From Acinetobacter bereziniae (lineage in GTDB: Bacteria > Pseudomonadota > Gammaproteobacteria > Pseudomonadales > Moraxellaceae), in the NCBI GenBank assembly GCA_009912575.1, contig WNDP01000027.1, positions 1-37,139 of the forward strand: a DNA stretch of 37,139 bases, in the 5' to 3' direction. Positions 1,756 through 35,147 of this stretch are shown in pieces (positions within the stretch are counted from its first letter, which is position 1; every line of letters starts with the position of its first letter). Position numbers and translations under genes: made by a program. A model generated the notes under the pieces. The model saw nothing but the letters and a program-made list of their open reading frames with translations. It did no database searches and had not been told where the DNA came from.

Positions 1756-2069
1756 GCGATTTAATAGAACAAAGTTGCGATCACTTTTGGGCGCATGATC
1801 ACATGGGTTATGCTAAGAAATGTATTAAATGCAATAAAATGGTAAGAATGAGCTTCACATCAGATTCTTTCATAGGGAGAAAAATTGAAGAAGATAATGT
1901 AACTAATATTGGAAACCATTTATCACCATCAACCAAAATCATCAACCAAAATCATCAACAAGTGATTCATAACCAAAAGTATTCGATTCATAAAAATCTT
2001 TCATTAGTCATGGGTATGGTTATTTTGCATAATAGCCATATCGAAAGGAGATTAAGAAATGAATTTTAA
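1752..2069 (+). CDS. Small zinc-ribbon-like protein with odd C-terminus
   Basis: ATG 1752 overlaps the previous stop and follows GGGAG. Residues 8-30 have the pattern C-x2-H then C-x2-C (SCDHFW and KKCIKCNKM), suggesting a zinc-binding knuckle of the short phage 'H..C..C' type. After about residue 60 the protein becomes Asn/His/Gln-rich because the frame runs through a repetitive stretch (AACCAAAATC twice near 1931-1953) and through the class B promoter at 1989-2033. The original gene may have ended near 1930, with the rest a read-through extension. Total 105 residues as read. Confidence 0.5.
   Translation: MSDLIEQSCDHFWAHDHMGYAKKCIKCNKMVRMSFTSDSFIGRKIEEDNVTNIGNHLSPSTKIINQNHQQVIHNQKYSIHKNLSLVMGMVILHNSHIERRLRNEF
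1989..2033 (+). promoter_or_regulatory. Class B promoter, copy 1
   Basis: CATAA at 1989, TTCATTAG at 2000 (11 bp later), and a -10-like CATAAT at 2028 (28 bp after the second box). An extra half-box TTCATAA lies at 1966-1972, 21 bp upstream of the first box and so on the same helix face. Transcription would start near 2040, just before AAAGGAG and the ATG at 2059. It overlaps the 3' end of the preceding frame. Confidence 0.6.
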
Positions 2070-2313
2070 AGTTGAATTATTAGGTTATGAAGATAAGTTG
2101 GCAGATTTTGAAGTGACTTTGAGTAATCTTGATGTAGTGACTTGCCATGCTATTATTGATTTGATTGATTTTAAAAATGGTGATGTAAATATTGATCCTG
2201 ATAATTGGTTTGATGCTGAAGGTGATTCGATTGATAAGCCTGAAGAATTTAAGTCATATGAGCGTCACTTGCTTAATGAATGCTTTGAAAATAATGTTGG
2301 TAATTTCTTATGA
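2059..2313 (+). CDS. Hypothetical acidic protein, class B promoter
   Basis: 84 residues, strongly acidic, with a strand-rich start (NFKVELLGYEDKLADF) and a DINPDNWFD-like acidic centre. The ribosome binding site AAAGGAG ends nine bases before the ATG. It is first in a run of small genes and directly follows class B promoter copy 1. No family recognised. A highly acidic small early phage protein could be a DNA mimic or host-protein inhibitor, but there is no direct sign of that. Confidence 0.6.
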   Translation: MNFKVELLGYEDKLADFEVTLSNLDVVTCHAIIDLIDFKNGDVNIDPDNWFDAEGDSIDKPEEFKSYERHLLNECFENNVGNFL

Positions 2314-2495
2314 AGGTAAAAATTAAAAGTTTTAAGGGTCAACTTCCTGAGTGTATAACTCAGGATAAGGAATATCAAATTGGTGTCTTTGATGGAAAAG
2401 GATTTGATTTTGTAGATGATGATGGTGATTGGTGGTACACAAAATTAATTAACTCATGGGTTTTGAATGGTGGTGATTGGGAGATTGTTGAGTGA
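2310..2495 (+). CDS. Hypothetical small beta-rich protein
   Basis: 61 residues, ATGA overlap with the gene before. The pattern of short strands ending in WWYTKLINSWVLNGGDWEIVE resembles a small SH3-like barrel and the 49-residue protein at 3903-4052, which also ends in a Trp-rich strand. Function unknown. Confidence 0.55.
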   Translation: MKVKIKSFKGQLPECITQDKEYQIGVFDGKGFDFVDDDGDWWYTKLINSWVLNGGDWEIVE

Positions 2496-2653
2496 ATTTA
2501 ATTATATCTATAGTCATGTTTTTTGCATTACTTGGCATTGGTATTTTTTTGGCAGAATGTATAAACAAAACCCAAAGAAAAAGACGTATTCAAAATTTAG
2601 AAAATCATCAAAGATTTTTTAATAAACAACATAAGAAGTGGTGGGAAAGATGA
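2492..2653 (+). CDS. Small single-pass membrane protein
   Basis: 53 residues starting at GTG 2492, which overlaps the preceding TGA (GTGA). Residues 2-22 are hydrophobic (LIISIVMFFALLGIGIFLA), followed by a strongly basic tail (KTQRKRRIQNL). This predicts an N-out or N-in single membrane helix with a cytoplasmic basic tail. The overlaps on both sides support it as a real gene of the operon. Confidence 0.5.
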   Translation: MNLIISIVMFFALLGIGIFLAECINKTQRKRRIQNLENHQRFFNKQHKKWWER

Positions 2654-3003
2654 GTGAATTGATTAGTGGCAAAGAGGCGTTATCAAGAGTTCATGAGGGT
2701 GTTGTTCAATACAAGTGTGTTAATGATCCGGTAAAAGATAGATGGACAACAATTACAGATCATTATTGGAGTCAATATAATTTAGGTGTTTTTCTTGACT
2801 TGGATACAACTTGGGAATTTAGAATTAAACCAAAAACCACAATTTTAAATGGTGTTGAGGTTGGTCAATTGGTTTCTGCTCAGTGGTCAAGAGATGAACC
2901 AAACAAGGTTAAACTAGAATTTAATAATCCAGAAGATGCTAATTATTTCAGAAGCAAAGCATTGGATATATTTAATTTCAATGAGGGTGTGAAAAATGAT
3001 TAG
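2650..3003 (+). CDS. Hypothetical phage protein
   Basis: 117 residues from ATG 2650, which overlaps the previous stop; an upstream in-frame GTG at 2638 would lie inside the previous gene. The N-terminal part (SGKEALSRVHEG, later DTTWEFRIKPKT) matches the general pattern of small phage early proteins of the 'SGKEAL...W.F..KP' kind found in many gammaproteobacterial phages. No enzymatic motif. Overlaps the next gene by eight bases. Confidence 0.55.
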   Translation: MSELISGKEALSRVHEGVVQYKCVNDPVKDRWTTITDHYWSQYNLGVFLDLDTTWEFRIKPKTTILNGVEVGQLVSAQWSRDEPNKVKLEFNNPEDANYFRSKALDIFNFNEGVKND

Positions 3004-3394
3004 TGCAACAAATGGCTACGATGTAGCAAACAGACAAGCTTTACGTGATAAATGGGATGTTTCAGGATTCCTTAAGTCTAAGAAAGTTACTAAAGAAAAA
3101 AAACCTAAGATTATTCAGGATATTAATCTAAACAAAAACAAATGCAAAAAAGCTGATGTGGATGCAAAGAATGAAAGATTAAAAATTCAAAGACCAGTTT
3201 TGGAAAGAGCAAAGAAAGTTTTTGGAAAAACACCGTGGAAGAATCTTTCTGATGCTGTCGATGGGATTGTGACAAGTAGTTATTTGGGTTGCATTTCAAG
3301 AGGGGTTTACAGTATTTCAAATCCAAATACTTGGGCTAGAATTGAAAATGCGGTGATTCAACGTGAAAAGGAATTTGAAAATGAAAAAAATTAA
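2996..3394 (+). CDS. Hypothetical basic protein
   Basis: 132 residues. A Lys-rich stretch (residues 25-60) is followed by a helical domain containing PWKNLSDAVDGIV and SNPNTWARIENAV. The basic character suggests nucleic-acid contact; no family recognised. Overlaps the next gene. Confidence 0.5.
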   Translation: MISATNGYDVANRQALRDKWDVSGFLKSKKVTKEKKPKIIQDINLNKNKCKKADVDAKNERLKIQRPVLERAKKVFGKTPWKNLSDAVDGIVTSSYLGCISRGVYSISNPNTWARIENAVIQREKEFENEKN

Positions 3395-3857
3395 GAAACG
3401 CTTAATTGCAAAATGGGAAATCATGATCACGGCTGAGATTGTTGAAACTGAATATAGCAACAAGCCGATTGATGATGAGTTTTTTGAACGGGTTTATAAG
3501 GGGGATTTTGTTCGAACTTATCGTGATGGGCGAACAGATGGCAAACAGATTTGGAAAATCCAAATTCTAACTAAGGCTCAGGATGATGAGGGTAATATTC
3601 ATGAGCATTTGCTTGAATGGGAATTTGATAAGCAAATGACAATTCGTGAAGTGTTGGAAGGTGCTAAACATATAAAGATGAATAATGAGTTTAAGACTCG
3701 CTGGACTGGTGTTACTAAGCAATGGCTTGATTGTGTTGATAATGACTTAAAAGGAATGACTTGCTTAGAGGCATGGGCTACTGCGGAGTGCGTGGCTAAT
3801 ATCACTCCAGAACGAGTGCAAAATAAATTTAGTAGATTGATGTTAAATGTTGCATAA
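3381..3857 (+). CDS. Hypothetical protein
   Basis: 158 residues from ATG 3381 (AAGGA ten bases upstream; GTG 3363 is an alternative). The sequence has a beta-rich N-terminal half (RTYRDGRTDGKQIWKIQI, LLEWEF) and a helical C-terminal half with conserved-looking Trp and Cys residues (WLDCVDN, CLEAWATAECVANI). I do not recognise it. The last codons (GTT GCA TAA) contain the -35 box of the next promoter. Confidence 0.5.
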   Translation: MKKIKKRLIAKWEIMITAEIVETEYSNKPIDDEFFERVYKGDFVRTYRDGRTDGKQIWKIQILTKAQDDEGNIHEHLLEWEFDKQMTIREVLEGAKHIKMNNEFKTRWTGVTKQWLDCVDNDLKGMTCLEAWATAECVANITPERVQNKFSRLMLNVA

Positions 3858-3878
3858 TTATATATATTAATATATATT
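3850..3878 (+). promoter_or_regulatory. Class A early promoter, copy 1
   Basis: -35 TTGCAT at 3850-3855, 17-bp AT-only spacer, -10 TATATT at 3873-3878. The spacer and -10 form the near-palindrome ATATATTAATATAT also found at 31411 and, with one change, at 33217. It drives the operon starting at 3903 (Imm, RusA and others). Confidence 0.65.
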
Positions 3879-6702: not shown

Positions 6703-6725
6703 AAGACTCGAAAGGGTCTTTTTTA
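6703..6725 (+). terminator. Rho-independent terminator
   Basis: Stem AAGACTC (6703-6709), loop GAAA, GGGTCTT (6714-6720), then T run to 6724. One T-G pair in the stem. Confidence 0.8.
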
Positions 6726-6745
6726 TTACCAAAAGTTTGGTGACT

Positions 6746-6787
6746 TATAAAAAAGTTTCATTAGTCGTGAGGGGAAAATAATAATAT
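6746..6787 (+). promoter_or_regulatory. Class B promoter, copy 2
   Basis: TATAA at 6746 (CATAA with C to T), TTCATTAG at 6757, 11 bp apart as in the other copies. The -10 is TAATAT at 6782 (25 bp after TTCATTAG) or TATATC at 6785 (28 bp). GAAACGAAA follows at 6797, as at 13421 in copy 3. It is placed between a terminator and the small gene at 6821. Confidence 0.55.
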
Positions 6788-6820
6788 ATCTTTATCGAAA
6801 CGAAATTAGAAAATATTAAA

Positions 6821-7009
6821 ATGATTAAGTATGAATCTAAGATTATTGCACAAAATGATTTGGGTAGAACTTGGGTGGTAATTCAAACAATAGAACATGT
6901 TAATGGTGATGTGAGTAGAAATAATTTATTTACATCAGAGCATAAAAATAATAAAGGTTTATTAGAATGTGAAAAAATGATTAGGAAAATGAAATCTATC
7001 ATTTGGTGA
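6821..7009 (+). CDS. Hypothetical small protein, class B promoter
   Basis: 62 residues, isolated between terminators at 6703 and 7014 and behind class B promoter copy 2, so it is a self-contained moron-like unit. The N-terminal half looks beta-stranded (KYESKIIAQNDLGRTWVVIQ), the end helical and basic (CEKMIRKMKSIIW). There is no clear ribosome binding site before the ATG, which lowers confidence in the start. Confidence 0.5.
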   Translation: MIKYESKIIAQNDLGRTWVVIQTIEHVNGDVSRNNLFTSEHKNNKGLLECEKMIRKMKSIIW

Positions 7010-7013
7010 TAAT

Positions 7014-7035
7014 AAGCCCTTAATTTGGCTTTTTT
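7014..7035 (+). terminator. Rho-independent terminator
   Basis: Short stem AAGCC (7014-7018) and GGCTT (7027-7031) with an 8-base loop and a run of six T. It ends the small transcription unit at 6821. Confidence 0.65.
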
Positions 7036-9092: not shown

Positions 9093-11135
9093 GTGAACAA
9101 TCAAGAGAAACTTCAAGGCATTCACGAAGAGGCAATGAGATTGTTTACTCGTGCGCAAGATTCTGTTCGGGAAGAGCGTAAACAGTGTTTAGAGGATCGT
9201 AGATTCTGTTTTATTGCTGGTGCGCAATGGGAAGGGTCATTAGCTCGACAGTTTGAAAATAAACCAAAGTTTGAAGTAAATAAGGTTCATTTAGCTGTAA
9301 TCAAAATTATTAATGAATATCGAAATAATAGAATTACAGTTACATTTGTTTCAAGAGATGGCAAGGGTTCAGATGATTTAGCCGATAAATGTGCTGGTTT
9401 ATATCGTGCTGATGAGCAAGATTCATGTGCCGAAGAAGCTTATGACGCTGCATTTGAAGAAGCTGTAAGCGGTGGATTTGGCGCTTGGCGTTTACGTGCT
9501 GACTATGAGGATGATGAGGATGAGGAAAACGATTATCAGCGTATTTACATAGAGCCAATTTATGATGCTGATTCTTCTGTATTCTTTGATCCAAATTCTA
9601 AGCGACAAGATAAGTCTGATGCTGAGTATGGGTTTGTTATGAACTCAATGACTTATGATGACTTTAGAGCTGAGTTTGGGAAAGATCCTGCATCAGTTCC
9701 AAGAGAAATTACATCATCAGAATATGATTGGGTTGGTACGGACTTTGTTTATGTTGCTGAATACTACAAGAAAGAGAAAAAGAAAAAGCTTATTAATGTT
9801 TACTATGGTTTAACTGGTGAGCGTGAAACACTAGATCAAGATGATATTAAAGAGAATCCAGAACTAGAAACCGATCTGGAGGCTAGAGGTTTTTCTTTAT
9901 TCAATACCAAGAAAATTAAATGCACTAAGGTTCGCAAGTATTTAATTTCTGGTAGTGAAGTGCTGGAAGATTGTGGTCTTATTGCTGGGAAGAATATTCC
10001 TATTGTCCCTGTTTATGGTAAACGAAGATACATTGATGGCATTGAGCGCTGCATGGGTCATGTTCGTTTATGTAAAGATGCGCAACGACTCAAGAATATG
10101 CAGTTATCAAAGCTTGGTGAGTTAAGCGCAAGATCATCAGATGAGAAGCCTATAGTTACTCCTGATCAAGTGATCGGCCATGAAAGAATGTGGGCCGAGG
10201 ATAATGTAAAAAACAATCCATTCTTGCTTATCAATCCGATGAAAGATGCTAGCGGTAATATTGTTGCGACTGCTCCAACAGCATATACAAAACCGCCTCA
10301 AGTCCCACCAGCAATGGCAGCATTATTGCAAGTAACTGAAACTGATTTAGGCGACATTTTAGGAAATCAAGATGCTGGTGATGAGGTTCAGGCCAATCTA
10401 AGTGGTAAAGCTGTTGAGTTGGTTCAAAACCGTTTGGATATGCAAGCGTTTATCTATATGAGCAACTTTGCCAAAGCTATGAAGCGTTGTGGTGAAATTT
10501 GGCTTGATATGGCGAAAGAGATTTATATCGAAGAAGGTCGTTCATTAAAAACTGTTGGTGAAAAGGATGAGGTGGGTAACACAACCATCATGAATCCGAT
10601 GATGAACGATGACTATTCTATTGAATATGAATCTGACTTAAAGAATGCTAAGTTTGATGTGGCTGTTGATGTTGGCCCAACTTCATCATCTAAACGTTCT
10701 GCAACATTAAGAGCATTAACGGGAATGATGCAATTAGTTTCTGATCCAACTGACATGGCTGTATTATCTGGTATGGCGATGATGAACATGGAAGGTGAAG
10801 GAATTGGTGATGTTCGTGATTACTATCGCAAGAAGATGGTAACTATGGGTGTTATTCCGCCAACTCAAGAAGAACAGATGCAGATGCAAGAGGAAGCAGC
10901 TAATCAGCAACCTGATGCACAAACTTTATTCTTGCAAGCTGAAGCAGCTAAGAGTGAATCATTAGCCGTTAAAGCTCAAGCAGATACAGCATTGATTCAA
11001 GCGAAAACAAAAGATACAATAGCGAAAACAGCAGAGACCTTAGCTGGGATTGATCGAGATGATCAAGAACAGGCTTTGAAAGAGGCTGAAGCTATGTTTA
11101 AAGCGGCATCCGTCCAGTCGCAACAAAGTGGATGA
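9093..11135 (+). CDS. P22-like portal protein
   Basis: 680 residues from GTG 9093, which has AAAGGG eight bases upstream; TTG 9087 is too close to it. Conserved portal features include RRFCFIAGAQWEG near the start, NKVHLAVIKIINEYRNNR, the EPIYDADSSVFFDPNSK block, and IPIVPVYGKRRYIDG. The end is a long Ala/Gln/Glu helical tail (about residues 590-680) like the barrel of P22 gp1 (725 residues). It forms the dodecameric vertex ring that takes terminase and then gp4. Confidence 0.93.
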   Translation: MNNQEKLQGIHEEAMRLFTRAQDSVREERKQCLEDRRFCFIAGAQWEGSLARQFENKPKFEVNKVHLAVIKIINEYRNNRITVTFVSRDGKGSDDLADKCAGLYRADEQDSCAEEAYDAAFEEAVSGGFGAWRLRADYEDDEDEENDYQRIYIEPIYDADSSVFFDPNSKRQDKSDAEYGFVMNSMTYDDFRAEFGKDPASVPREITSSEYDWVGTDFVYVAEYYKKEKKKKLINVYYGLTGERETLDQDDIKENPELETDLEARGFSLFNTKKIKCTKVRKYLISGSEVLEDCGLIAGKNIPIVPVYGKRRYIDGIERCMGHVRLCKDAQRLKNMQLSKLGELSARSSDEKPIVTPDQVIGHERMWAEDNVKNNPFLLINPMKDASGNIVATAPTAYTKPPQVPPAMAALLQVTETDLGDILGNQDAGDEVQANLSGKAVELVQNRLDMQAFIYMSNFAKAMKRCGEIWLDMAKEIYIEEGRSLKTVGEKDEVGNTTIMNPMMNDDYSIEYESDLKNAKFDVAVDVGPTSSSKRSATLRALTGMMQLVSDPTDMAVLSGMAMMNMEGEGIGDVRDYYRKKMVTMGVIPPTQEEQMQMQEEAANQQPDAQTLFLQAEAAKSESLAVKAQADTALIQAKTKDTIAKTAETLAGIDRDDQEQALKEAEAMFKAASVQSQQSG

Positions 11136-13330: not shown

Positions 13331-13356
13331 AGCCACCTTCGGGTGGTTTTCTTTTT
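13331..13356 (+). terminator. Rho-independent terminator after coat gene
   Basis: Stem AGCCACC (13331-13337), UUCG-type loop, GGTGGTT (13342-13348), then a T-rich run. It separates the head operon from the accessory island. Confidence 0.8.
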
Positions 13357-13366
13357 CCTCGTGATT

Positions 13367-13411
13367 CATAAAAATTATTCATTATTCAAAGTTATTCATA
13401 ACCGTTAATAT
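13367..13411 (+). promoter_or_regulatory. Class B promoter, copy 3
   Basis: CATAA at 13367, TTCATTAT at 13378 (11 bp), -10 TAATAT at 13406 (28 bp), then GAAACGAAA at 13421. The -10 overlaps the ATG at 13410, so the following gene must start further in if this promoter is used. Confidence 0.6.
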
Positions 13412-13691
13412 GTACTTATTGAAACGAAACAAACAAATTAAGGATACATTATCTCAAGTGCATTTTTCAAATGATAACTTTTCTGATTTACAAGATGAAT
13501 TTTTTGAAGAGATGGCTGTTTTAGGTTTTGTTGTTAATGGTGGAATTAAGTCTGTAAACCTAAATAAAGTTATTGCCTTAGCTAAAGATAAAGCTAAGAT
13601 ATTTAATAAAGTGGCAACAGTTCACACTTGGGGTATTCGCAAGAATGGAAGAATTGATTTTGATAATAAAGTTGAGTCTTTCGAGGTTTAA
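13410..13691 (+). CDS. Hypothetical protein, class B promoter; start uncertain
   Basis: 93 residues if ATG 13410 is used, but that ATG is part of the -10 box of class B promoter copy 3 and has no ribosome binding site. In-frame GTG 13458, with AAGGA upstream at 13440-13444, would give 77 residues starting near HFSNDNFSD. The centre (FEEMAVLGFVVNGGIKSVNL) and the end are mixed helix and strand; no family recognised. It sits between the coat terminator and another small gene. Confidence 0.5.
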   Translation: MYLLKRNKQIKDTLSQVHFSNDNFSDLQDEFFEEMAVLGFVVNGGIKSVNLNKVIALAKDKAKIFNKVATVHTWGIRKNGRIDFDNKVESFEV

Positions 13692-13738
13692 TGATTGGTT
13701 TATAAACATTAATATGAGTGCATAGGAAGGAGATTGTT

Positions 13739-14035
13739 ATGAAAAAATTATTATTAGTTTGTGCTTTGGCGTTTGGTTCATTGGCTCATGCTGATGAGTG
13801 TGAAAGCTTGCATCAATTAGCTGGAACTATTGCAGATGCTCGGATGGGTGGAATGTCGCAGAATCAAGCTTTAGATATTGCAGAGAATAGCGAACTTCCA
13901 GAGATCGCTGTCTATTTGGTCAATCATGCTTATGACTTGGATTTAATGGGTACTGATAAGGATAAGCGCATTGAGGTTCAGTTATTTCAAACTGAGATTT
14001 ATATCATGTGTAAGGAATATTTGAATGACCTATAA
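13739..14035 (+). CDS. Secreted small protein with signal peptide
   Basis: 98 residues from ATG 13739, preceded by AAGGAG. A classical signal peptide (MKKLLLVCALAFGSLAHA) with likely cleavage before DECES. The mature part is about 80 residues, helical and acidic, with two cysteines (ADECES and IMCKEY) that could form a disulfide in the periplasm. Phage-encoded periplasmic proteins often change host surface or adsorption; that role is only a possibility here. The 3' end overlaps the next tiny gene. Confidence 0.7.
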   Translation: MKKLLLVCALAFGSLAHADECESLHQLAGTIADARMGGMSQNQALDIAENSELPEIAVYLVNHAYDLDLMGTDKDKRIEVQLFQTEIYIMCKEYLNDL

Positions 14036-14150
14036 AACAGAAACAGGAATAACATTCCAAAAGGCTTTTGATGCGGTGCAATGGGCTATGCGACATGGTA
14101 AGCATGTTGATATTTACAAGGGTGATAAGTTTTTGCGGAGGTTGGTTTGA
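14025..14150 (+). CDS. Small hypothetical protein
   Basis: 41 residues from ATG 14025, overlapping the end of the secreted protein gene and the start of the next gene. The sequence has TFQKAFDAVQWAMRHGKHV followed by a basic end KFLRRLV. It resembles the many short 'FDAV.WAM..GK.V' phage peptides with a helix and strand; no function known. Confidence 0.5.
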   Translation: MTYKTETGITFQKAFDAVQWAMRHGKHVDIYKGDKFLRRLV

Positions 14151-14365
14151 TCTATATAGTCAGGAAGTGTTTTAAATTCGATTCTCAAAATATATGTTGC
14201 GCAACAAATAATTTATGTTTTGCTGAAGATGTTTTCGATAAAGAAGTTTTAAGTTGTGATATTGGTATAAATTATGAGTGGGTTGAGTTAATTTGTTTTG
14301 ATGGTCAAAAGCACTATGAGTTTAATAACCATAAAACTATAAAAACAACATATAAAGACTCATAA
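14147..14365 (+). CDS. Hypothetical protein, TTG start
   Basis: 72 residues. The only start in place is TTG 14147, overlapping the previous TGA and five bases after GGAGG (14137-14141). It is cysteine-rich (FDSQNICCATNNLCFAEDV, LSCDIG, LICFDG). Class B promoter copy 4 begins over its last codons. Function unknown. Confidence 0.5.
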   Translation: MIYIVRKCFKFDSQNICCATNNLCFAEDVFDKEVLSCDIGINYEWVELICFDGQKHYEFNNHKTIKTTYKDS

Positions 14366-14405
14366 CTTTTATTCATTAGTCGTTTTAATTGAAAGTTGGT
14401 AAATT
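14361..14405 (+). promoter_or_regulatory. Class B promoter, copy 4
   Basis: CATAA at 14361, TTCATTAG at 14372 (11 bp), -10-like TAAATT at 14400 (28 bp). The transcript would begin near 14412, immediately before TTTTAGGAGG and the ATG at 14425. Confidence 0.55.
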
Positions 14406-14424
14406 AGGGTTTTAGGAGGATGCT

Positions 14425-14577
14425 ATGAAAGGCATATTTATGGCTTTGTCGGCTATATTGGTAATTTTATTTTTCTTTATTGGTTCTCATAACGCAAGCA
14501 AAGAGCAATGCGATGGGAAACAAAAAATATATTTGTTTGCTGGAAAATTTTATGCATGTGAAGATTGGGGAAAGTAA
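14425..14577 (+). CDS. Small membrane-anchored protein, class B promoter
   Basis: 50 residues: a hydrophobic helix (MALSAILVILFFFIGS) then a short polar domain with two cysteines (EQCDGKQKI and YACEDWGK). AGGAGG stands five bases before the ATG. A periplasmic or cell-surface miniprotein held by its N-terminal helix is likely. The stop is directly followed by the next ATG. Confidence 0.55.
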   Translation: MKGIFMALSAILVILFFFIGSHNASKEQCDGKQKIYLFAGKFYACEDWGK

Positions 14578-14808
14578 ATGACTAAATTCCGCAACCTAAA
14601 AATAGCTATCACCGAAGATCAACTGCTTGATGATGTGATGATGGAGTTGGAGCGAATTGGATATAAGATTTCATACAAGACTATAGCGCCAGTTAGGTGT
14701 GTAATTTTTGATAATTGTCATTACTCATTACTTGGTTCGGATATTGACCTTGTTGACAATTATGAGTTAACCACCCTAGCCGAACTTAAGGAGATGGAAA
14801 ATGATTAA
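14578..14808 (+). CDS. Hypothetical protein
   Basis: 76 residues, ATG directly after the previous stop, 3' overlap with the next gene. Helix then strand pattern (ITEDQLLDDVMMELERIGY) with a Cys pair further on (RCVIFDNCHY). Not recognised. Confidence 0.5.
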   Translation: MTKFRNLKIAITEDQLLDDVMMELERIGYKISYKTIAPVRCVIFDNCHYSLLGSDIDLVDNYELTTLAELKEMEND

Positions 14809-15238
14809 AATTTCTAATTGTATTGTTGATGAATCTGAAAACCATATTGTTAAAGATATTCAATATGATTCAAACAGCAAGATAACTTTCACATTGTTTG
14901 ATGGTCGTATTTTTTTAAAAAATGACGTTAGCATGAACGATGTAAACTTTGCACTAAATAGCCCAGATGTAGTTTATAAGAATTGGTTTGAGGGGGGTGA
15001 AATGAAAAGTTTTGATGATGCTAATTACAGCCAGCGTGATTGTGAAGTTCATAATCATGCGTATTATCTAGGCCAACAATCCAAACAAGCCGAGATTGAT
15101 AGCATTAATAGAGATTTAAATCATGCGTTTGCTACAGTTGAGCTACAAGTTGCCGAGATTGATAGATTGCGGAAACGGATTGACTTTTTGAAACAAATAA
15201 TAGACTACGGTCTAGGTGAAGACGATTTCAAATCTTAA
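14801..15238 (+). CDS. Hypothetical protein with C-terminal coiled coil
   Basis: 145 residues. The first 66 are beta-like (SKITFTLFDGRIFLKND). From residue 68 the sequence reads MKSFDDANYSQRD, then a coiled coil (KQAEIDSINRDLNHAF and LQVAEIDRLRKRIDFLKQI). ATG 15002 has the strong ribosome binding site GAGGGGGGTG just upstream, so a second protein of 78 residues may start there, or two genes may have fused. The C-terminal part resembles the Q/E-rich coiled-coil proteins common in phage early regions. Confidence 0.5.
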   Translation: MIKISNCIVDESENHIVKDIQYDSNSKITFTLFDGRIFLKNDVSMNDVNFALNSPDVVYKNWFEGGEMKSFDDANYSQRDCEVHNHAYYLGQQSKQAEIDSINRDLNHAFATVELQVAEIDRLRKRIDFLKQIIDYGLGEDDFKS

Positions 15239-15250
15239 AAGGAAACACAA

Positions 15251-15573
15251 ATGAAGATTGAAGAACAAAGAAAGGCTTTTGAGGAATATTACATAGCGAA
15301 TCATCATGATGGTGATATTCACCCAAACCAAAAGTTACTAGAGTGGAGTGAAAAGGTGAATTCTACTTTGAAACTAGCGTAAATGACCTATGGGATATGT
15401 GGTACGCAAGCGCAAACCGACAAGGGCATAAGCTTGTGCCTGTTGATACACTAGAATGTGCTTTGGAGTGGTTTGATGTTGTTGAGGCGGAGTGGTCTGG
15501 AGCTTGTGATTTATCTAACGATTTTAAACATAAAGATTTAATTGAAGCAGTGATCGGAGGTTATGATGAGTAA
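15251..15573 (+). pseudogene. Small phage gene split by a -1 frameshift
   Basis: ATG 15251 (GGAAAC upstream) opens a frame (KIEEQRKAFEEYYIAN...HPNQKLLEWSEK) that ends at 15382. A second frame in phase 1 continues from 15352 (GEFYFETSVNDLWDMWYAS...) to the stop at 15571-15573. One extra A in the AAAA run at 15351-15354 would join them into a single protein of about 107 residues (EWSEKGEFYF across the join). The joined product has the look of one small early phage protein (WDMWYASANRQGHKLVPV). The site is not a canonical slippery heptamer, so a mutation or base-call error is likelier than programmed frameshifting. Confidence 0.6.
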
Positions 15574-15712
15574 AAACATTATTATATTTATCTTATTGTG
15601 ATATTCATTCAATGTAACTTTTGTGTGGTTTCTGCAAAGAGCAATGTTTAATAGATACATAAGAGAAATCGAAAAAAATAAGGAAAAACCAAAGCATGAA
15701 ATCGGCCTCTAA
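15563..15712 (+). pseudogene. Small membrane protein gene with in-frame TGA
   Basis: After GGAGG, ATG 15563/15566 starts MMSKNIIIFILL and stops at TGA 15599-15601. The frame then stays open for 36 codons (YSFNVTFVWFLQRAMFNRYI, ending KPKHEIGL) to TAA 15710-15712. The two halves together make one membrane helix plus a basic tail, very like the 53-residue protein at 2492-2653. TGA probably replaces TGG. The terminator at 15705 overlaps its end. Confidence 0.5.
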
Positions 15713-15728
15713 ATTAGGGGCTTTTTTT
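15705..15728 (+). terminator. Rho-independent terminator
   Basis: Stem GCCTCT (15705-15710) and AGGGGC (15716-15721) with one T-G pair, loop AAATT, run of seven T. Confidence 0.75.
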
Positions 15729-17139: not shown

Positions 17140-18537
17140 ATGCAAATACCTATTGTTAATGGAATTTACACAAATGATTCTTCTGATTTTAGAACATCAT
17201 ATCCTGTAAATCTTATTCCAGTTCCGAAATCAAATGGTATATCTAATGGGTATTTGCGCCCTGCTGATGGAATAATTCATTTAGTTGATGTTGATGGAGT
17301 TGATCGTGGCGGAATAAACTGGAATGGTTTTTGTTATCGTGTTTGTGGATCAGATTTAATTAGGTTAAATCCAGATAATACTGTTACTATAATTGGCTCG
17401 GTTGGTAATGGGGGGCAATGTCATTTTGATTATTCATTTGAGTATTTAGCTATAAATAGTAATGATAGGTTGTATTTATACAATGGTACTGATTTGAAGC
17501 AAGTAATAGATGGTGATTTGAGGATAGTTAAAGATATAATATGGGTTGATGGTTACTTTATGTCAACCGATGGAACGTATTTAATTGTTACTGAATTAAC
17601 AGATCCATTTCAAGTAAATCCATTAAAATATGGTTCTGCTGAGGTTGATCCTGATCCAATTAATGCACTAATGAAAATTAGGAATGAGGTGTATGCGCTT
17701 GGTAGATATACAATTGAGGTTTTTGATAACGTTGGTGGTGATCTATTTCCATTTGCTCGTATTGATGGAGCTATGATTCCGAAAGGAACTATAAGCGTTA
17801 CAACTTGTTGTAATTTCCTTGAAAACATCGCATTTGTTGGTTCAGGTAGAAATGAGCCAATTGGTATTTATGTTGGTTCGAGTGCTAATGCTCAAAAGAT
17901 TTCCAATCGTGAGATTGATCAAATAATCCACACTTATAGTGAGGCTGTTTTATCTAAATGTTTACTTGAATCACGATCACAAAATGGTCATAACTGGATT
18001 TATTACCATTTGCCTGATCAAACATTAGCGTATGATTTTGCAGCTACACAAGAAATGGGTTCTCCTGTTTGGTTTAAGCTATCAACTGGAATTGAATTAA
18101 GTCAATACACGGCTAAAAATCATGTATGGTGTTATGACAAATGGATTGTTGGTCATCCAAAATTACCAAAGTTAGGCACATTAACTAATAAAGAGAGTCA
18201 TCACTGGGGTGAGTCTGTTAATTGGTCATTCGATACCGCAATTGCTTACAATGAATCACGTGGCGCATTATTTCATCAGATTGAATTGATTGCTTTAACT
18301 GGCCATGTTGATATTGATAAAGATCCAACAATATACACTCAATATTCACTTGATGGTGAATCATGGTCACAACCTAAATTCATCAAATCTGGTCGTATTG
18401 GTCAAAGAGCTAAACGTTTAGTTTGGTTGCAACAAGGATCAATGAATAATTGGCGCATACAGCGTTTTGTTGGCACTAGTGATAGTCATCTATCAATTGC
18501 AAGGTTAGAGGCTCAAATCGAGCCATTGGCGGTGTAA
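17140..18537 (+). CDS. P22 gp10-like packaged DNA stabilisation (tail hub) protein
   Basis: 465 residues (P22 gp10 is 472). Starts QIPIVNGIYTNDSSDFRTSY with VNLIPVPK, then RPADGI, the classic opening of this family. A beta-propeller-like body (HFDYSFEYLAINSNDRLYLY, VWVDG-like repeats) follows, and the end has SWSQPKFIKSGRIGQRAKR. It forms the hexameric hub below gp4, closes the head after packaging and carries the needle and tailspikes. Confidence 0.92.
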   Translation: MQIPIVNGIYTNDSSDFRTSYPVNLIPVPKSNGISNGYLRPADGIIHLVDVDGVDRGGINWNGFCYRVCGSDLIRLNPDNTVTIIGSVGNGGQCHFDYSFEYLAINSNDRLYLYNGTDLKQVIDGDLRIVKDIIWVDGYFMSTDGTYLIVTELTDPFQVNPLKYGSAEVDPDPINALMKIRNEVYALGRYTIEVFDNVGGDLFPFARIDGAMIPKGTISVTTCCNFLENIAFVGSGRNEPIGIYVGSSANAQKISNREIDQIIHTYSEAVLSKCLLESRSQNGHNWIYYHLPDQTLAYDFAATQEMGSPVWFKLSTGIELSQYTAKNHVWCYDKWIVGHPKLPKLGTLTNKESHHWGESVNWSFDTAIAYNESRGALFHQIELIALTGHVDIDKDPTIYTQYSLDGESWSQPKFIKSGRIGQRAKRLVWLQQGSMNNWRIQRFVGTSDSHLSIARLEAQIEPLAV

Positions 18538-20325: not shown

Positions 20326-20340
20326 ATTATAGCAATAACC

Positions 20341-20385
20341 CATAACTTTATTTCATAAGACATTAATTGAAGCTCATAGTAATAT
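20341..20385 (+). promoter_or_regulatory. Class B promoter, copy 5
   Basis: CATAA at 20341, TTCATAAG at 20352 (11 bp), -10 TAATAT at 20380 (28 bp). TTTTAGGAGG and the ATG at 20410 follow, as in copies 4 and 6. Confidence 0.6.
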
Positions 20386-20409
20386 GGGCTTTTATTTTAG
20401 GAGGTTGAT

Positions 20410-20817
20410 ATGATTGATGTTGAATTGCAAGTAGCTAAAATAAATTTTGAGAGAGTAATGATGAAAATTGAGGAGGAAAAAAGACTTCAAGAGATGTCAA
20501 TTGATGATCTTGTTAAATTAATGCAATTCAAGAATGATGTTGCTGAATTTTTTATGTATGCATCATATAAAACAACAAATGTTTATTCTGATGAATTATT
20601 TGGTATTGTTCAACATAGGGAAAAAGAGTTAAATGATGCTGGGTATAAGACATTTTCTGTTCAAAATAACGGTTGGTATTCGATGGATAGAACTTGGTAT
20701 GTTTGGAGTAAAAATAAAATACAAGATAGAAAAGAAGGTGCTGAAAATGCAGTAATTCTAGTTTCTATTCTTACTGTGTTGCTTATTGTATTTATTTTAT
20801 TTATCAAGTTTAGATAA
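20410..20817 (+). CDS. Coiled-coil protein with C-terminal membrane helix, class B promoter
   Basis: 135 residues: charged helical N-terminus (residues 1-45), a middle domain with Tyr/Trp (FSVQNNGWYSMDRTWYVWSK), and a C-terminal transmembrane helix (AVILVSILTVLLIVFILFI) ending in KFR. A tail-anchored inner-membrane protein in a tail-gene region but with its own promoter is typical of a moron, for example an exclusion factor. Function is inferred only from this layout. Confidence 0.6.
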   Translation: MIDVELQVAKINFERVMMKIEEEKRLQEMSIDDLVKLMQFKNDVAEFFMYASYKTTNVYSDELFGIVQHREKELNDAGYKTFSVQNNGWYSMDRTWYVWSKNKIQDRKEGAENAVILVSILTVLLIVFILFIKFR

Positions 20818-20829
20818 ATTGGAGTATTT

Positions 20830-21033
20830 ATGAATTTTATAATAGTAGATTCAATACTCGTAAATCTTAACGAGATAAGCTATGTGATTGATGTTAATTA
20901 TATTAAAGTGACATTAGGTAGCGGATCGCTAAAAATTGATGGTTGTCGAATTTTCTTTAAATCCGGGCAAGAGATAGAGATAAACGGAGTTAAATCTAAG
21001 AGTATTTTAAAAATGATTCATGAGTTAAAGTAA
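20830..21033 (+). CDS. Small hypothetical protein
   Basis: 67 residues with a PH-like strand pattern (FIIVDSILVNLNEISYVIDV, KVTLGSGSLKIDGCRIFF) and a C-terminal helix. Same transcription unit as the gene before; TTGGAG upstream; terminator directly after. Confidence 0.55.
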   Translation: MNFIIVDSILVNLNEISYVIDVNYIKVTLGSGSLKIDGCRIFFKSGQEIEINGVKSKSILKMIHELK

Positions 21034-21044
21034 CATGCTAAAAT

Positions 21045-21067
21045 AGCCCTCAAAGGAGGGCTTTTTT
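21045..21067 (+). terminator. Rho-independent terminator
   Basis: Stem AGCCCTC (21045-21051), loop AAAG, GAGGGCT (21056-21062), T run. It ends the class B unit 20410-21033 and lies directly before the gp14-like ATG. Confidence 0.85.
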
Positions 21068-21529
21068 ATGATTGAAATAAAATCTTTAACAAATGTGAAA
21101 ACAATAAATTCAATAATGTCTAATGAGTTTTTGAAGGATGATATTTGTGATGATGCAAGCGAGGATTCATTGCTATCTGAAATACCAAACTTTATGAAAT
21201 TTCATGGGGTTTATAAAGATTCTGATTGTGTAGGGTTTTACGCTACTCAAATGCAAAACGGATCGACCGTTGAGATACATACTTGCTTACTTCCTGAGTT
21301 TAGAGGAAGAGATGCTTTGCAAAGTGGTAGGTTAATTTTATCTCTGCTTTTTAATGATTTTGATAAGGTAATTTCTTGGATTCCTGAATATAATAAAAAA
21401 GCATTGATTTACTCTAAGTTATTAGGCTTATCAATTGAGGGTGAAAATAGATTTTCATTCAAGAAAAATGATATTCTATATCATCAATATTTAGTTGGAA
21501 TAACTAAAGGAGAATTTTCATGCCAGTAG
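21068..21529 (+). CDS. P22 gp14-like protein (DUF2824, GNAT-like)
   Basis: 153 residues with the acetyltransferase-like core VGFYATQMQNGSTVEIHTCL, LPEFRGRDALQSGRLILSLL and a C-terminal GLSIEGENRFSF. The length, the GNAT-like fold pattern and the position directly before the gp7-like gene match P22 gp14 (DUF2824), which is needed for virion infectivity or assembly. Whether it has enzymatic activity is not known. It overlaps the next gene by ten bases. Confidence 0.75.
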   Translation: MIEIKSLTNVKTINSIMSNEFLKDDICDDASEDSLLSEIPNFMKFHGVYKDSDCVGFYATQMQNGSTVEIHTCLLPEFRGRDALQSGRLILSLLFNDFDKVISWIPEYNKKALIYSKLLGLSIEGENRFSFKKNDILYHQYLVGITKGEFSCQ

Positions 21530-22176: not shown

Positions 22177-23526
22177 ATGGCTTTAAATCCTGTAAATTAT
22201 TTAACTGATGTTGCCAATCCGTATACTGCTTCTATGCAAGGATATACGCAAGGCACTAATCTTGTTGCTGACATTCAAAAAAATGAGCTTGATCAGCAAT
22301 TAGCGAAACAAAAGAGACTAATTGAGCAACAAAAACGCGATGACATGAAAGCATTTGTTTCTTTGCAAAACCCAACTGCAAAAGATTACACAGCTATCAT
22401 GAATAAATATCCTGAACTTTCTGAGAACTATAAGCGCTCTTGGGATATTCTTGACAAAGATCAAAAACAAAAGACGTTAAGTTCATCATCTCAGGTTTAT
22501 GCTGCTTTATCTGCCAATCAACCTTTAGTTGCTCAACAGTTATTAGAACAGCAAGCAGCAGCATTTTTAAATTCTGGTGATGTTGAAACATCCAAACATT
22601 TAGATGCATTAGCTCAGATTGTGCAACAAGATCCTAGTTTAGCTCAAAAGCAAATTGGCATGTTTATGTCAGCAACTTCACCTGATCAGTTTGCAACAAT
22701 AACAAAAACATTAGGTGAAGAACAGCGTTCTAATCAATTACAGCCTTATGAGTTAGCACAAAAGCAAGCTCAAAATGAGAAATTGAGAATTGAGAATCAG
22801 TATTTACCTCAAGAAAAAGAGGCAAGCTTATCTAACATTGAATCTCAGATCGAAGATAGAACAGTTAATCAATATTTTGAAAAAGAAAAAATGAGATTGC
22901 AGAATGATCAGTTCTATAAAAAACTAGATCAAGATCAAGCGCAATTTTATGAAAACTTGAATCAAGAGGAACGAAACAAGGCTCGTGCAATGGCAAGTGC
23001 TGGTGTTGAGAATGATGAAAAAAAGCTTGCTAGACTTGAAAAGGCTCAAAACTTCGCAACAACAACAGTAAACGCTTCAGAAACTGCAAAGCTTGCTGCT
23101 GAGTTGATTAACGATTACAAGAGATTGTCTGATGCTAGTGGTGCTGGTGTTTGGAATGCCGCAATGCGTAATGTTCCTGGAACAGCAGAATATGATTTTG
23201 CTCGTAGAGTTGAAACATTAAAGAGTCAAGCATTTTTGATTGGTTCGCAAAACTTAAAAGGTTTGGGCGCCATGACAGAGATGGAGGGGAAAAAGGTAAC
23301 TGATGCTCTCGGAAATCTCGATTTAAGTCAAGAGACTTCACAAGTAGCTAAACAACTTGCAAATATCGCCAAGTCTGCAAATGTTGTTGCTCAATCGGCA
23401 AATAAAAACGCCCAATTGTATGCAACAAGAGGTAAGGGGTATTCTGCTGAGGTTATTGAGGCTGCCAAGCGTAGAGGTGTATCTCCAGCAGAGATGCAAA
23501 AAATAGCAAACCAAATGGGGCTTTGA
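22177..23526 (+). CDS. P22 gp20-like injection protein
   Basis: 449 residues (P22 gp20 is 471). Mostly helical, Gln/Lys/Glu/Ala-rich with coiled-coil stretches (ADIQKNELDQQLAKQKRL, EKEKMRLQNDQFYKKLDQDQ) and the C-terminal GKGYSAEVIEAAKRRGVSP motif seen in phage DNA-transfer proteins. Second injection gene by order. Confidence 0.82.
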   Translation: MALNPVNYLTDVANPYTASMQGYTQGTNLVADIQKNELDQQLAKQKRLIEQQKRDDMKAFVSLQNPTAKDYTAIMNKYPELSENYKRSWDILDKDQKQKTLSSSSQVYAALSANQPLVAQQLLEQQAAAFLNSGDVETSKHLDALAQIVQQDPSLAQKQIGMFMSATSPDQFATITKTLGEEQRSNQLQPYELAQKQAQNEKLRIENQYLPQEKEASLSNIESQIEDRTVNQYFEKEKMRLQNDQFYKKLDQDQAQFYENLNQEERNKARAMASAGVENDEKKLARLEKAQNFATTTVNASETAKLAAELINDYKRLSDASGAGVWNAAMRNVPGTAEYDFARRVETLKSQAFLIGSQNLKGLGAMTEMEGKKVTDALGNLDLSQETSQVAKQLANIAKSANVVAQSANKNAQLYATRGKGYSAEVIEAAKRRGVSPAEMQKIANQMGL

Positions 23527-31401: not shown

Positions 31402-31430
31402 TTGCATTGAGATATATATTAATATATACT
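31402..31430 (+). promoter_or_regulatory. Class A promoter, plus strand (nucleotide operon)
   Basis: -35 TTGCAT (31402-31407), 17-bp spacer, -10 TATACT (31425-31430). The two divergent promoters overlap almost completely. GTTGCA at 31401 and TGCAAC at 31440 form the outer arms, and ATATATTAATATAT forms the centre. Confidence 0.65.
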
Positions 31431-33207: not shown

Positions 33208-33236
33208 TTGCATTAATATATATATTGATATATATT
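33208..33236 (+). promoter_or_regulatory. Class A early promoter, copy at 33208
   Basis: -35 TTGCAT (33208-33213), 17-bp spacer, -10 TATATT (33231-33236). The spacer differs from the others by one G in the palindrome centre (ATATTGATAT). Drives the operon from 33262. Confidence 0.65.
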
Positions 33237-33261
33237 CTAGTTTCTTTAGAAGGAGTAAGTT

Positions 33262-34065
33262 ATGAGTAAGTTTAAAATAAATGATCATGTTGAAATAGTT
33301 AGTGTTGGTTTTTTAACTAAGAATGAAAGAATCACTATGAATGTTAAAGTTGGGGATTCTGGAAAAGTAATTGGTTTTTATAGACCAGCCCCAGTAGTTG
33401 CTATTATTGAAAATAATAAGTTTACAAATAGTAATGCAGGAGAGGGCAAATTATTCATACCAATGTCTAGCCTAAAAAAGTTAAATTCATTTTATCTTGA
33501 ATCAAACCGCCACAAATTATATCAAGCGATTAAAGCAACTGGATTTCACGCTGAGAAATTATCTTTAGCATCTAATCATGCTAAAACTTATTTCACTGGA
33601 TTCACTGCTGAGTCACGTTTCAATAGTCGTGGTGATATTACAGAAGAACGTTTAAATTCTTTATTAACCACATTGGAATTTGCAGAACGTGAGTTGCTTG
33701 GTGTTGGTGCTAAGACTGTTGATGAAAAAAATGTGTCTTTGGTTGAAGAAAAAACAACAATGATTGTTGGTGATACAAAATTCGAAGGAACTCTTTCGGA
33801 ATTTAAAATATTTCTTGATAAGACTTTAAGTGATGAGGAAATTAAACTTATGGATTCTTCTGAATACAAGAAGATTGCAGAGGATTTTGAATCTGGAATG
33901 CAAGAATCGATTAATGAACCAAAAAACCAAAGTGATCTGTATTCAGAATATTTTGATTCAGCTAACAAGCGCATTCAAGAAAAGAAAGATGCAAAAGTTA
34001 GAAACTTCTTGATTGTGTTTTTGGTTTTTGTTGTTCTATTGGCATTATGGTTTTTCTTTAAATGA
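33262..34065 (+). CDS. Tail-anchored hypothetical protein
   Basis: 267 residues: an N-terminal beta domain (INDHVEIVSVGFL, VKVGDSGKVIGFY, like an SH3/KOW barrel), a helical middle (SNRHKLYQAIKATGFHAEKL), an acidic linker, and a C-terminal membrane helix (NFLIVFLVFVVLLALWFFF) ending in Lys. The N-terminal part would face the cytoplasm. Not recognised. Ribosome binding site AGAAGGAG, 3' overlap with the winged-helix gene. Confidence 0.55.
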   Translation: MSKFKINDHVEIVSVGFLTKNERITMNVKVGDSGKVIGFYRPAPVVAIIENNKFTNSNAGEGKLFIPMSSLKKLNSFYLESNRHKLYQAIKATGFHAEKLSLASNHAKTYFTGFTAESRFNSRGDITEERLNSLLTTLEFAERELLGVGAKTVDEKNVSLVEEKTTMIVGDTKFEGTLSEFKIFLDKTLSDEEIKLMDSSEYKKIAEDFESGMQESINEPKNQSDLYSEYFDSANKRIQEKKDAKVRNFLIVFLVFVVLLALWFFFK

Positions 34066-34307
34066 ACAATACTGCTAAATCTTTAGACCGTGGCATTGAT
34101 GTACTGCTGGTGATAAAAAACTCACCAGTGGCGACAGCTAAGGAGGTTCACAATCAAGTTATGCACAATGAGACAATTCGATGCGTTCAGCGTTATTTGA
34201 AAGGATTATGCGAATTAGGCTTAATCTACGGCATAGCTAAAGATGGTGAAGCAACAAGATATTATTTGACTGGAAAGTCTTTACAATTATTTGGAGTGGT
34301 GAAATGA
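34062..34307 (+). CDS. Winged-helix transcription-regulator-like protein
   Basis: 81 residues. Helices SLDRGIDVLLVIKNSPVA, TAKEVHNQVMH, recognition helix ETIRCVQRYLKGLCELGLI, wing YGIAKDGEATRYYLT: a clear winged helix. Overlaps both neighbours by four bases. With the 1274 gene it is one of the few candidate DNA-binding regulators, and so a possible factor for class A or B promoters. Confidence 0.65.
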   Translation: MNNTAKSLDRGIDVLLVIKNSPVATAKEVHNQVMHNETIRCVQRYLKGLCELGLIYGIAKDGEATRYYLTGKSLQLFGVVK

Positions 34308-34525
34308 ATTTAAATTTATTATTAGATGCGAAAGCTGAAGCAGAACGTTTTATTAAATCTATTGATGATGAGATAGATAAGCAAAATAAAGATGCAAAAA
34401 AATATTCATGGATTAAATCAACAATTGATCGTGGGTATTTATATTCTGGCGCTGGAGTTGCAACAATTAAACGCAGATCAATGGATTTAACTCGATCATT
34501 GTCTAAGATGCGTCAAGGAAAATAA
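34304..34525 (+). CDS. Small charged hypothetical protein
   Basis: 73 residues; helical N-terminus (LLLDAKAEAERFIKSIDDEI) then a basic end (IKRRSMDLTRSLSKMRQGK). ATGA overlap with the gene before. Function unknown. Confidence 0.5.
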   Translation: MNLNLLLDAKAEAERFIKSIDDEIDKQNKDAKKYSWIKSTIDRGYLYSGAGVATIKRRSMDLTRSLSKMRQGK

Positions 34526-34526
34526 C

Positions 34527-34679
34527 ATGAGCCTAGACCAAATCAGAAAAGATGCGCCATCAATGGCAACTCATTATTGTAAAAAGAATGAAGTTTACAT
34601 TTCAGGTGGTAAATGATTTTTAAACGGTAACTGGATTCAATATGATGATAGTTGCAGAATGGAGCTTACAGAGTTATGA
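34527..34679 (+). pseudogene. 'MSLDQI' family gene with in-frame TGA
   Basis: ATG 34527 gives MSLDQIRKDAPSMATHYC...YISGGK and stops at TGA 34614-34616. The same frame goes on FLNGNWIQYDDSCRMELTEL to TGA 34677-34679, which overlaps the next ATG (34676) in the usual coupled way. The paralogue at 29593 (minus) is uninterrupted. TGG to TGA is the simplest explanation, since a Trp fits before FLNG. Translation past the TGA would be needed to couple the next gene. Confidence 0.6.
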
Positions 34680-35056
34680 AGGTAATGAGTAAAGATTTTG
34701 TTTTATCTTGTGTTGAAAAACTAAATGAAACACAGCATAAATTATTCATTGACTATGGATTGCGTCAAATCAAATACATGTTTGATGTTGATAAAATACT
34801 AGAAGTTGAATTACCTGAAAATTCAAAATTAATAGGTTTATCCGAAATGGGTAGATTTACTGCAATTGATCATGAAAATAAAATTCGTTATGGATATTTC
34901 CCCCATGACAAAAGATGGTCACAAGCAAATGAGTTTGGAAATTTAACAAAATTTGATTCAATAGATGATTTTGGTTTTATATACAATACATTCAAGTTAA
35001 TCAAATATGAATTAAACTCATTGACATATGTTCATAGAAATTATATTAATTGGTAA
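34676..35056 (+). CDS. Hypothetical protein
   Basis: 126 residues from ATG 34676, or 123 from ATG 34685. Helical start (LSCVEKLNETQHKLF), a beta middle with GRFTAIDHENKIRYGYFP, and an aromatic end. Not recognised. Last gene before a terminator. Confidence 0.5.
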   Translation: MKVMSKDFVLSCVEKLNETQHKLFIDYGLRQIKYMFDVDKILEVELPENSKLIGLSEMGRFTAIDHENKIRYGYFPHDKRWSQANEFGNLTKFDSIDDFGFIYNTFKLIKYELNSLTYVHRNYINW

Positions 35057-35061
35057 AAACT

Positions 35062-35082
35062 AGCTCCTTCGGGAGCTTTTTT
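35062..35082 (+). terminator. Rho-independent terminator
   Basis: Stem AGCTCC (35062-35067), TTCG loop, GGAGCT (35072-35077), T run. Confidence 0.85.
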
Positions 35083-35102
35083 ATTCCTTAAAGTTTCACC
35101 AC

Positions 35103-35147
35103 TCATAAAAATATTCATTAGACGCAATGTTTAAGTTGGAGAATAAT
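35103..35147 (+). promoter_or_regulatory. Class B promoter, copy 6
   Basis: CATAA at 35103, TTCATTAG at 35114 (11 bp), -10-like AATAAT at 35142 (28 bp), then ATTTAGGAGG before the ATG at 35172. Directly after a terminator. Confidence 0.6.

Follow-up and report, generated by a model that had tools for sequence, protein, structure and literature searches.

The stretch of DNA analysed here, called the window in the following, is the 37,139-nt contig WNDP01000027.1 of the Acinetobacter bereziniae assembly GCA_009912575.1, and it carries six copies of an element, class B, in which a 25-bp dyad stands exactly 18 bp before a -10-like hexamer. We consider it probable (about 0.6) that class B represents a type of promoter used by a set of Acinetobacter phages and is read by a phage-encoded activator of the class-II type. 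The window phage shares the element with the metagenomic phage IMGVR_UViG_3300010373_000081 (hereafter R; 41,525 bp, with a 123-bp terminal repeat) and with Acinetobacter phage Acjo_20 (PV067699.1), a deposited phage of A. johnsonii. Each of these three phages has six or seven copies, most of which are followed by a small group of accessory genes unrelated to one another. The contig has a 127-bp direct terminal repeat and therefore corresponds to a circular genome of ~37,012 bp; judged by its terminase, portal, coat, head-tail adaptor, and head-closure genes, which match P22-like families, the window phage is P22-like. In the subset of window proteins that was scanned, neither an integrase nor a repressor was recognised.

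Anatomy of the class B element

Alignment of the six window sites gives the consensus GAYTCATAA-N6-TTCATTAGWC, an imperfect inverted repeat of 25 bp; the copy at 35100 has 24 bp, one base fewer than the other five. At the best axis, 60% of the positions of the dyad are mirror-complementary. A 13-bp direct repeat, with 50% identity at that lag, fits less well, and the imperfect inverted repeat is the best description. In the original prediction, made from the sequence of the window, two similar half-sites one helical turn apart were described, with the second box exactly 11 bp after the first. All six sites are present, with the second box and the -10 where they had been placed, and five of the six first boxes are also correctly positioned; the CATAA of the last copy begins at 35104, not 35103, and the 11-bp distance holds in the five full-length copies. 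The helical-turn description has to be given up, as the CAT elements are spaced by 13 bp (12 bp in the last copy) and the inverted repeat fits better.

The pattern GAYTCATAANNNNNNTTCATTAGWC, with up to three mismatches, finds five of the six window sites where 0.07 matches are expected, and none of 100 shuffles reaches five; the 24-bp copy is absent because a fixed-length pattern cannot fit a shorter site. The short form CATAA-N6-TTCATTAG is far weaker, with eight matches at up to two mismatches (five of them true sites) against 2.94 expected. With leave-one-out matrices, no other position in the window, inside genes or elsewhere, scores as high as any held-out site, so the chance matches of equal quality that would have spoken against the prediction are not seen there. 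A matrix built only from the seven sites of R ranks the six window sites first in the window, and the matrices of the two phages each recover the sites of the other before anything else.

For the statistics we used 18 sites: six from the window, seven from R, and five from Acjo_20. The 12 sites outside the window all keep the 18-bp distance between the end of the dyad and the -10, and in 18 of 18 the hexamer at this offset matches TATAAT at 4-5 of 6 positions. The mean -10 log-odds is 3.61 at offset 18, against a mean of -5.59 (sd 1.56) for other offsets (z 5.9), and the signal summed over the 18 sites has a single peak, at offset 18. No normal -35 exists, as had been predicted: the best hexamer at 16-18 bp never agrees with TTGACA at more than four of six positions, and the hexamer at the 17-bp spacing is TAGWCR-like, with three or four matches and never five. 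The orientation is that of the downstream gene at every one of the 18 sites. Conservation is concentrated in the dyad and the -10, the 18-bp spacer being variable, and the right arm reads TTCATTA, TTCATAA or, once, GTCATTA. The dyad starts 47-80 nt before the first open reading frame (ORF) of at least 40 aa at 14 sites, and further away at the other four. After the -10, a leader resembling ATTGAAACGAAA is seen at several sites of all three phages, including window sites a, b, and c.

Distribution of class B among phages

R carries seven class B sites, all on the strand of its genes; the control gave none. R and the window phage have much of the early region in common (an Erf-type protein, an exonuclease, a dCMP deaminase, and gene 2059), and no match was found between their terminase, portal, and coat proteins at E 1e-4; several virion proteins of R resemble those of the contractile-tailed phage Cato. 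The sites of the two phages follow the same circular order. Their pairing by flank identity is clear for sites a, f, and e (0.82, 0.68, and 0.57) and moderate for b and c (0.50), and site d is paired by the spelling of its dyad alone (0.28). Acjo_20 was detected through a match of one promoter (E 4e-5); it has four strong sites and a fifth that scored 18.8 before its inclusion in the matrix. A weaker sixth copy at 39309, with its -10 at 18 bp, lies between terminator-like stems and is followed by a C-5 cytosine methyltransferase gene, and downstream of the site at 11110 come an exonuclease-like gene, Gp157, SSB, and dUTPase. R and Acjo_20 are distant relatives, their virion proteins being mostly 23-28% identical (terS 52%, endolysin 76%).

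Among the 18 first downstream genes, homology at E <= 0.01 is limited to one pair, gene 2059 and its R counterpart, which bears out the view that the genes served are mutually unrelated. The window copies also stand ahead of small genes to which no function has been assigned, in both early and structural parts of the genome, and none of the six genes that come first after a site has a known function. The proposal of a moron regulon rather than a housekeeping set therefore fits the window and is too narrow for the other phages, where copies precede recombination, methyltransferase, and replication-region genes. Moron-like units, with their own promoter and terminator among co-oriented genes, can be delimited at 6703-7031, 13331-15722, and 20369-21062, and similar units are found in R and Acjo_20; units closed by a downstream terminator occur in all three phages. 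Because the terminator at 21045-21062 stands directly before a structural gene at 21068, late transcription must pass it, and we infer that the class B transcripts are those confined to the clusters.

Terminator-like stems lie near 10 of the 18 sites, compared with 63 of 600 random positions. They are hardly commoner there than at other gaps, however, since 13 of 28 other intergenic starts also carry one, so terminators seem to mark gaps in general and the insulation is not special to class B. Terminators do lie near many of the sites; insulation as a hallmark of the class was dropped after this control. What is distinctive is the placement of the stems, which either end 14-23 nt before the dyad (seven sites) or overlap or enclose the -10 (three sites). 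Sites a and d have no upstream terminator-like stem of their own.

Six Obolensk-type Acinetobacter phages were also examined: Cato, RM_A2, phi1_092006, SHI, vB_AQ1, and fThrA. The strict matrix gave no convincing site in the first four (RM_A2 has one 19.4-bit match without a -10), and these phages had been taken to lack class B; this was wrong, as diverged copies had been missed. vB_AQ1 and fThrA surfaced at E 0.8, each with a 14.3-bit element and TAATAT at exactly 18 bp. When a softened matrix with the 18-bp rule was run over 10 phages, eight positions of at least 14 bits were found in the six Obolensk-type phages, and for six of these, distributed over five phages, a -10 follows at 18 bp (base rate 0.04). 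Five of the six phages thus hold one or two diverged copies each. These stand before a DnaT-like gene in Cato, RM_A2, vB_AQ1, and fThrA, and before small regulator genes in Cato (ribbon-helix-helix by Pfam) and phi1_092006 (annotated as Arc-like). The elements of vB_AQ1 and fThrA are identical and three others share one spelling, so there are few independent events among them. No site was found in phiAC-1 (JX560521), to which IMGVR_UViG_2706795112_000001 is identical over 38000-43216. A different word, TTTACTATTGAGAAT, occurs in five to eight copies in each of the six Obolensk-type phages, in or near promoters. In Cato, RM_A2, and phi1_092006, it lies at offsets of -33 to +23 from the best -10, with three of 18 copies directed against the gene, and it resembles the operator of a repressor, scattered over the genome.

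Further phages with more than one strict site did not turn up in pattern searches of viral contigs (47, at least 80 of 102, and 21 stretches), in a plasmid search, among relatives of genes 2059 and 35422 in viral contigs, or in sequence searches of phages with two other sites. The strict pattern in genome contigs gave three stretches, none from Acinetobacter, and none of the 18 coat-gene loci scanned, of 29, had a match at up to three mismatches. Besides R, only IMGVR_UViG_3300037805_000216 had two sites (22.9 and 16.5) among the viral-contig matches listed. In this unrelated-looking phage (42.6% GC), two similar elements, CCCTCATAAAAATGTTTCATT (14339; record position 23306), are followed by TATAAT at 17 bp, and may be either distant relatives or the result of convergence. 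In the open papers searched, we found no report on class B.

Table 1. Class B sites and associated features of the window
Feature	Position	Strand	Sequence or remark
Site a, dyad	1985..2009	+	GATTCATAAAAATCTTTCATTAGTC; same element at R 37364 before homologous gene
Site a, -10-like hexamer	2028..2033	+	CATAAT, 18 bp after dyad
First gene after site a, 84 aa	2059..2313	+	No known function; 87% identical to R 37439-37693
Terminator-like stem directly upstream of site b	6703..6720	+	Letter-identical to stem upstream of R 40272
Site b, dyad, before terminase module	6742..6766	+	GACTTATAAAAAAGTTTCATTAGTC
Site b, -10-like hexamer	6785..6790	+	TATATC at 18 bp; TAATAT starting at 6782 scores better
First gene after site b, 62 aa	6821..7009	+	No confident family of known function
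Terminator-like stem closing site-b unit	7014..7031	+	Before terS
Terminator-like stem directly upstream of site c	13331..13348	+	After coat gene
Site c, dyad	13363..13387	+	GATTCATAAAAATTATTCATTATTC
Site c, -10-like hexamer	13406..13411	+	TAATAT
Site d, dyad	14357..14381	+	GACTCATAACTTTTATTCATTAGTC
Site d, -10-like hexamer	14400..14405	+	TAAATT
First gene after site d, 50 aa	14425..14577	+	No family match
Terminator-like stem closing c+d unit	15704..15722	+	
Site e, dyad	20337..20361	+	AACCCATAACTTTATTTCATAAGAC; weakest in the window
Terminator-like hairpin enclosing site e -10	20369..20392	+	
Site e, -10-like hexamer	20380..20385	+	TAATAT
First gene after site e, 135 aa	20410..20817	+	No known function
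Terminator-like stem closing site-e unit	21045..21062	+	
Terminator-like stem upstream of site f	35062..35077	+	
Site f, dyad, 24-bp form	35100..35123	+	CACTCATAAAAATATTCATTAGAC
Site f, -10-like hexamer	35142..35147	+	AATAAT
First gene after site f, 81 aa	35172..35417	+	No PHROG match; start re-assigned to follow -10
Cys-rich protein in site-f unit, 81 aa	35422..35667	+	phrog_11472 type
DnaT/Phd-like small protein beside replication genes	36480..36776		Also R 33708, Acjo_20 2797, Cato 36118, L244 10529

The window also has a second promoter family, with TTGCAT, a 17-bp spacer containing an AT-rich palindrome, and TATATT, at 3850 and 33208 (+) and, by the repeat only, at 31402 (+); like copies are found at R 31489 and at phiAC-1 4579 and 15013. 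They probably act as strong promoters of early genes and include an operator of their own.

What may read the element

In the activator reading, a phage-encoded DNA-binding protein would occupy the dyad, which spans ~-55 to -31 with its centre at ~-43 if the -10 is placed at -12 to -7, and would help the host RNA polymerase to start at a decent -10, the degenerate -35 (TAGWCR, at 17 bp) lying inside the right half-site. This layout would correspond to class-II activator geometry. Activation is favoured because one distance and one orientation are kept at all 18 sites together with a poor -35, unlike the behaviour of TTTACTATTGAGAAT. As for its origin, an activator promoter, perhaps first that of replication-region genes, may have been multiplied into a regulon with a shared activator, which would have kept its positions as virion modules and the genes of the clusters were swapped. 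The motif, its fixed spacing, the poor -35, the orientation, the occurrence in several phages, and the lack of a host regulon can be read from the sequences; activation rather than repression, the phage origin of the factor, the timing, and the direction of this evolution are what we infer from these comparisons. More tentatively, and at somewhat less than even odds, class B would be a portable regulon, in which a phage activator of a new type (possibly the 35422 family) jointly controls most accessory clusters, the sockets keep their order while virion modules and the inserted genes are exchanged, and the whole grew from the one or two replication-region promoters seen in Obolensk-type phages.

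The original prediction named the two winged-helix proteins of the window (1274-1495 and 34062-34307) as possible activators, a proposal that finds no support here. They have relatives in R (43%, plus a second in a like position), and tblastn found none either in Acjo_20 or in those five Obolensk-type phages that carry diverged copies; moreover, a protein related to both (33 and 40%) is encoded at 17864-18076 of a second phage-like contig in this assembly, which carries no class B sites. The helix-turn-helix (HTH) protein at 33262-34065 was also set aside, having a relative in phiAC-1, which has no site. By eye, this protein, also represented in R, looks as if it had an HTH domain and, at its C-terminal end, a membrane helix, and it is possibly a membrane-anchored DNA-binding protein. 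The proteins common to all site-bearing phages are of two kinds, the Cys-rich 35422 type and a DnaT/Phd-like protein, each present in eight of the eight phages with strict or diverged sites (the latter in the window by profile only). A five-member profile of the DnaT/Phd-like protein matches the replication restart protein DnaT (E 4.7e-7), which, with its replication-gene neighbours, disfavours it as the activator; one member matches the Phd/YefM antitoxin at 0.0016, which leaves the possibility, and the Cato copy is annotated as a transcriptional regulator. The Cys-rich family is 72-76% identical among the window, R, and Acjo_20, lies in the site-f unit in all three, and is itself under a class B promoter in these phages. 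In the R copy, the identity extends over 51 aa, and compared with the window gene the frame seems to be interrupted, which would reflect either a sequencing error or a pseudogene. This family is the best candidate for the activator, still a weak one and rather unlikely to be right.

Several observations weigh against the activator reading. No activator has been found, and no regulator is exclusive to the site-bearing phages: the 35422 family also occurs in SHI and in the 20-kb part of L244, both without sites (it is absent from phiAC-1), and the DnaT/Phd-like protein also occurs in that part of L244. At four of the 18 sites, a hexamer at another offset outscores that at offset 18, including the -10 at 15 bp for window 6742 and the hexamer at 8 bp for 35100, and at three sites, the hexamer at 16 ties with it in matches. 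The weak -35 has a mean of 3.7 matches to TTGACA, compared with a random mean of 2.56, so basal activity without an activator is possible. Site a is not cleanly intergenic, as had been claimed for all the sites, but lies inside a 114-aa ORF (1725-2069). The copies are partly homologous between phages and are not 18 independent events, and the stems at other intergenic starts, mentioned above, belong here too.

It is an unlikely alternative that the dyad serves as the operator for a repressor of the phage, which would block a weak sigma-70 promoter and silence the genes jointly instead of switching them on. The position of the dyad over the -35, which itself stands above the random mean, would suit this; the genes of Acjo_20 include one for a Cro-like protein and one for another transcriptional regulator, and the Obolensk-type phages do carry a multi-copy repressor-like word. 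That word, however, varies in both spacing and orientation, whereas class B varies in neither, no class B copy has a -35 with five of six matches, and no CI-type repressor was seen in the subset of window proteins that was scanned. Even less probable is a dedicated factor from the host, a regulator with a narrow regulon that binds the dyad. Such a regulator would explain why no phage activator could be named, but the bacterial genomes offer it little: outside the phage contig, the window's own assembly has no match at up to two mismatches and no excess at three (12, against 21 for the reversed control), the exact degenerate pattern, which matches four of the six window sites, occurs in one of 176 genus genomes, the own one, and thus in 0 of 175 others, and a second pattern at up to one mismatch has one match in one of 149 other genomes. 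A host regulator is highly improbable on these grounds, and the absence of a host regulon of such sites is the indirect reason for placing the single activator of the original prediction in the phage. It should be mentioned that this assembly is large (5.16 Mb in 335 contigs, compared with 1.4-4.9 Mb in its genus).

Two further explanations were weighed. PeSLs, elements of promoter plus stem-loop at the borders of exchangeable genes in T4-type phages (as cited in PMC4503421), suggest a terminator-promoter cassette kept by recombination at its borders, with no dedicated activator. The two stereotyped places of the stems, the letter-for-letter identity of the stem ahead of window 6742 with that ahead of R 40272, and the absence of a homologue among the others for 16 of the 18 first genes are in keeping with this. 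On the contrary, terminators are hardly enriched over other gaps, conservation resides in the dyad and the -10 while the spacer varies and flank identity is 0.28-0.68 in five of six window-R pairs, and a recombination patch requires no exact distance to the -10. As far as the cited description goes, PeSLs have an early sigma-70 promoter and belong to T4-type myoviruses, whereas class B has a long conserved dyad in place of the -35 and its phages are P22-like or contractile-tailed, with 37-45 kb; the window phage is P22-like with a poor -35. We regard this explanation as very unlikely. A phage-modified polymerase or an alternative sigma factor that reads the whole element would account for the length and conservation of the upstream element and for the fixed position of the -10, but a 25-bp dyad exceeds the -35 contact of a sigma factor, the -10 is ordinary, and the scanned window proteins included none that was recognisably sigma-like, so this reading is hardly likely at all.

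Relation to known systems and significance

Multi-copy, activator-dependent phage promoters are well known from P2 (Ogr/Delta) and Mu (C and Mor), where they drive late or middle genes, and class B may be compared with them in that several promoters share an upstream dyad without a good -35. In those systems there is one small phage activator, which for class B is only postulated; class B serves accessory clusters for the most part, although in some phages it also stands before genes of recombination or of the replication region; and the dyads differ in sequence and span. The morons of lambdoid phages are additional genes, each equipped with a promoter and a terminator, that sit among phage genes of the same orientation. 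Their promoters are individual, whereas many class B clusters share one promoter class, which is moreover common to phages of another virion type. Class B is not a XerCD dif/pdif site, its right arm being unlike the XerD arm consensus, TTATGTTAA, after a 6-bp centre, and a -10 lying at 18 bp; nor, with CAT repeats 13 bp apart, is it a Pho box or another 11-bp tandem site.

The start-associated sequences (SAS) and their extended form (ESAS) of cluster K mycobacteriophages are described as multi-copy, mostly in one orientation, and nearly absent from hosts, and they precede genes of different families; ESAS is an inverted repeat whose partner is unknown (PMC3203893). According to the same description, SAS is a 13-bp repeat lying 3-7 bp before the start codon, with ESAS spacers that vary, mostly within 4-13 bp (PMC3203893). 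For class B, the fixed distance is that to the -10 and not to the start codon, and a dyad that starts 47-80 nt before the first ORF in 14 of 18 cases, and further in the rest, speaks against identity with the elements so described.

The usual view is that each accessory gene of a phage has a promoter of its own. A single operator common to most accessory clusters of a genome, across capsid and tail types, would show how newly acquired genes can come under common timing. The cluster of Acjo_20 with the cytosine methyltransferase contains a typical defence-evasion gene, and the genes at the window sites are without known function. The class B sites can serve as bait for the activator, and the matrix as a finder of accessory genes in other Acinetobacter phages. 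If the portable-regulon reading is true, genes that enter a socket would fall under common control.

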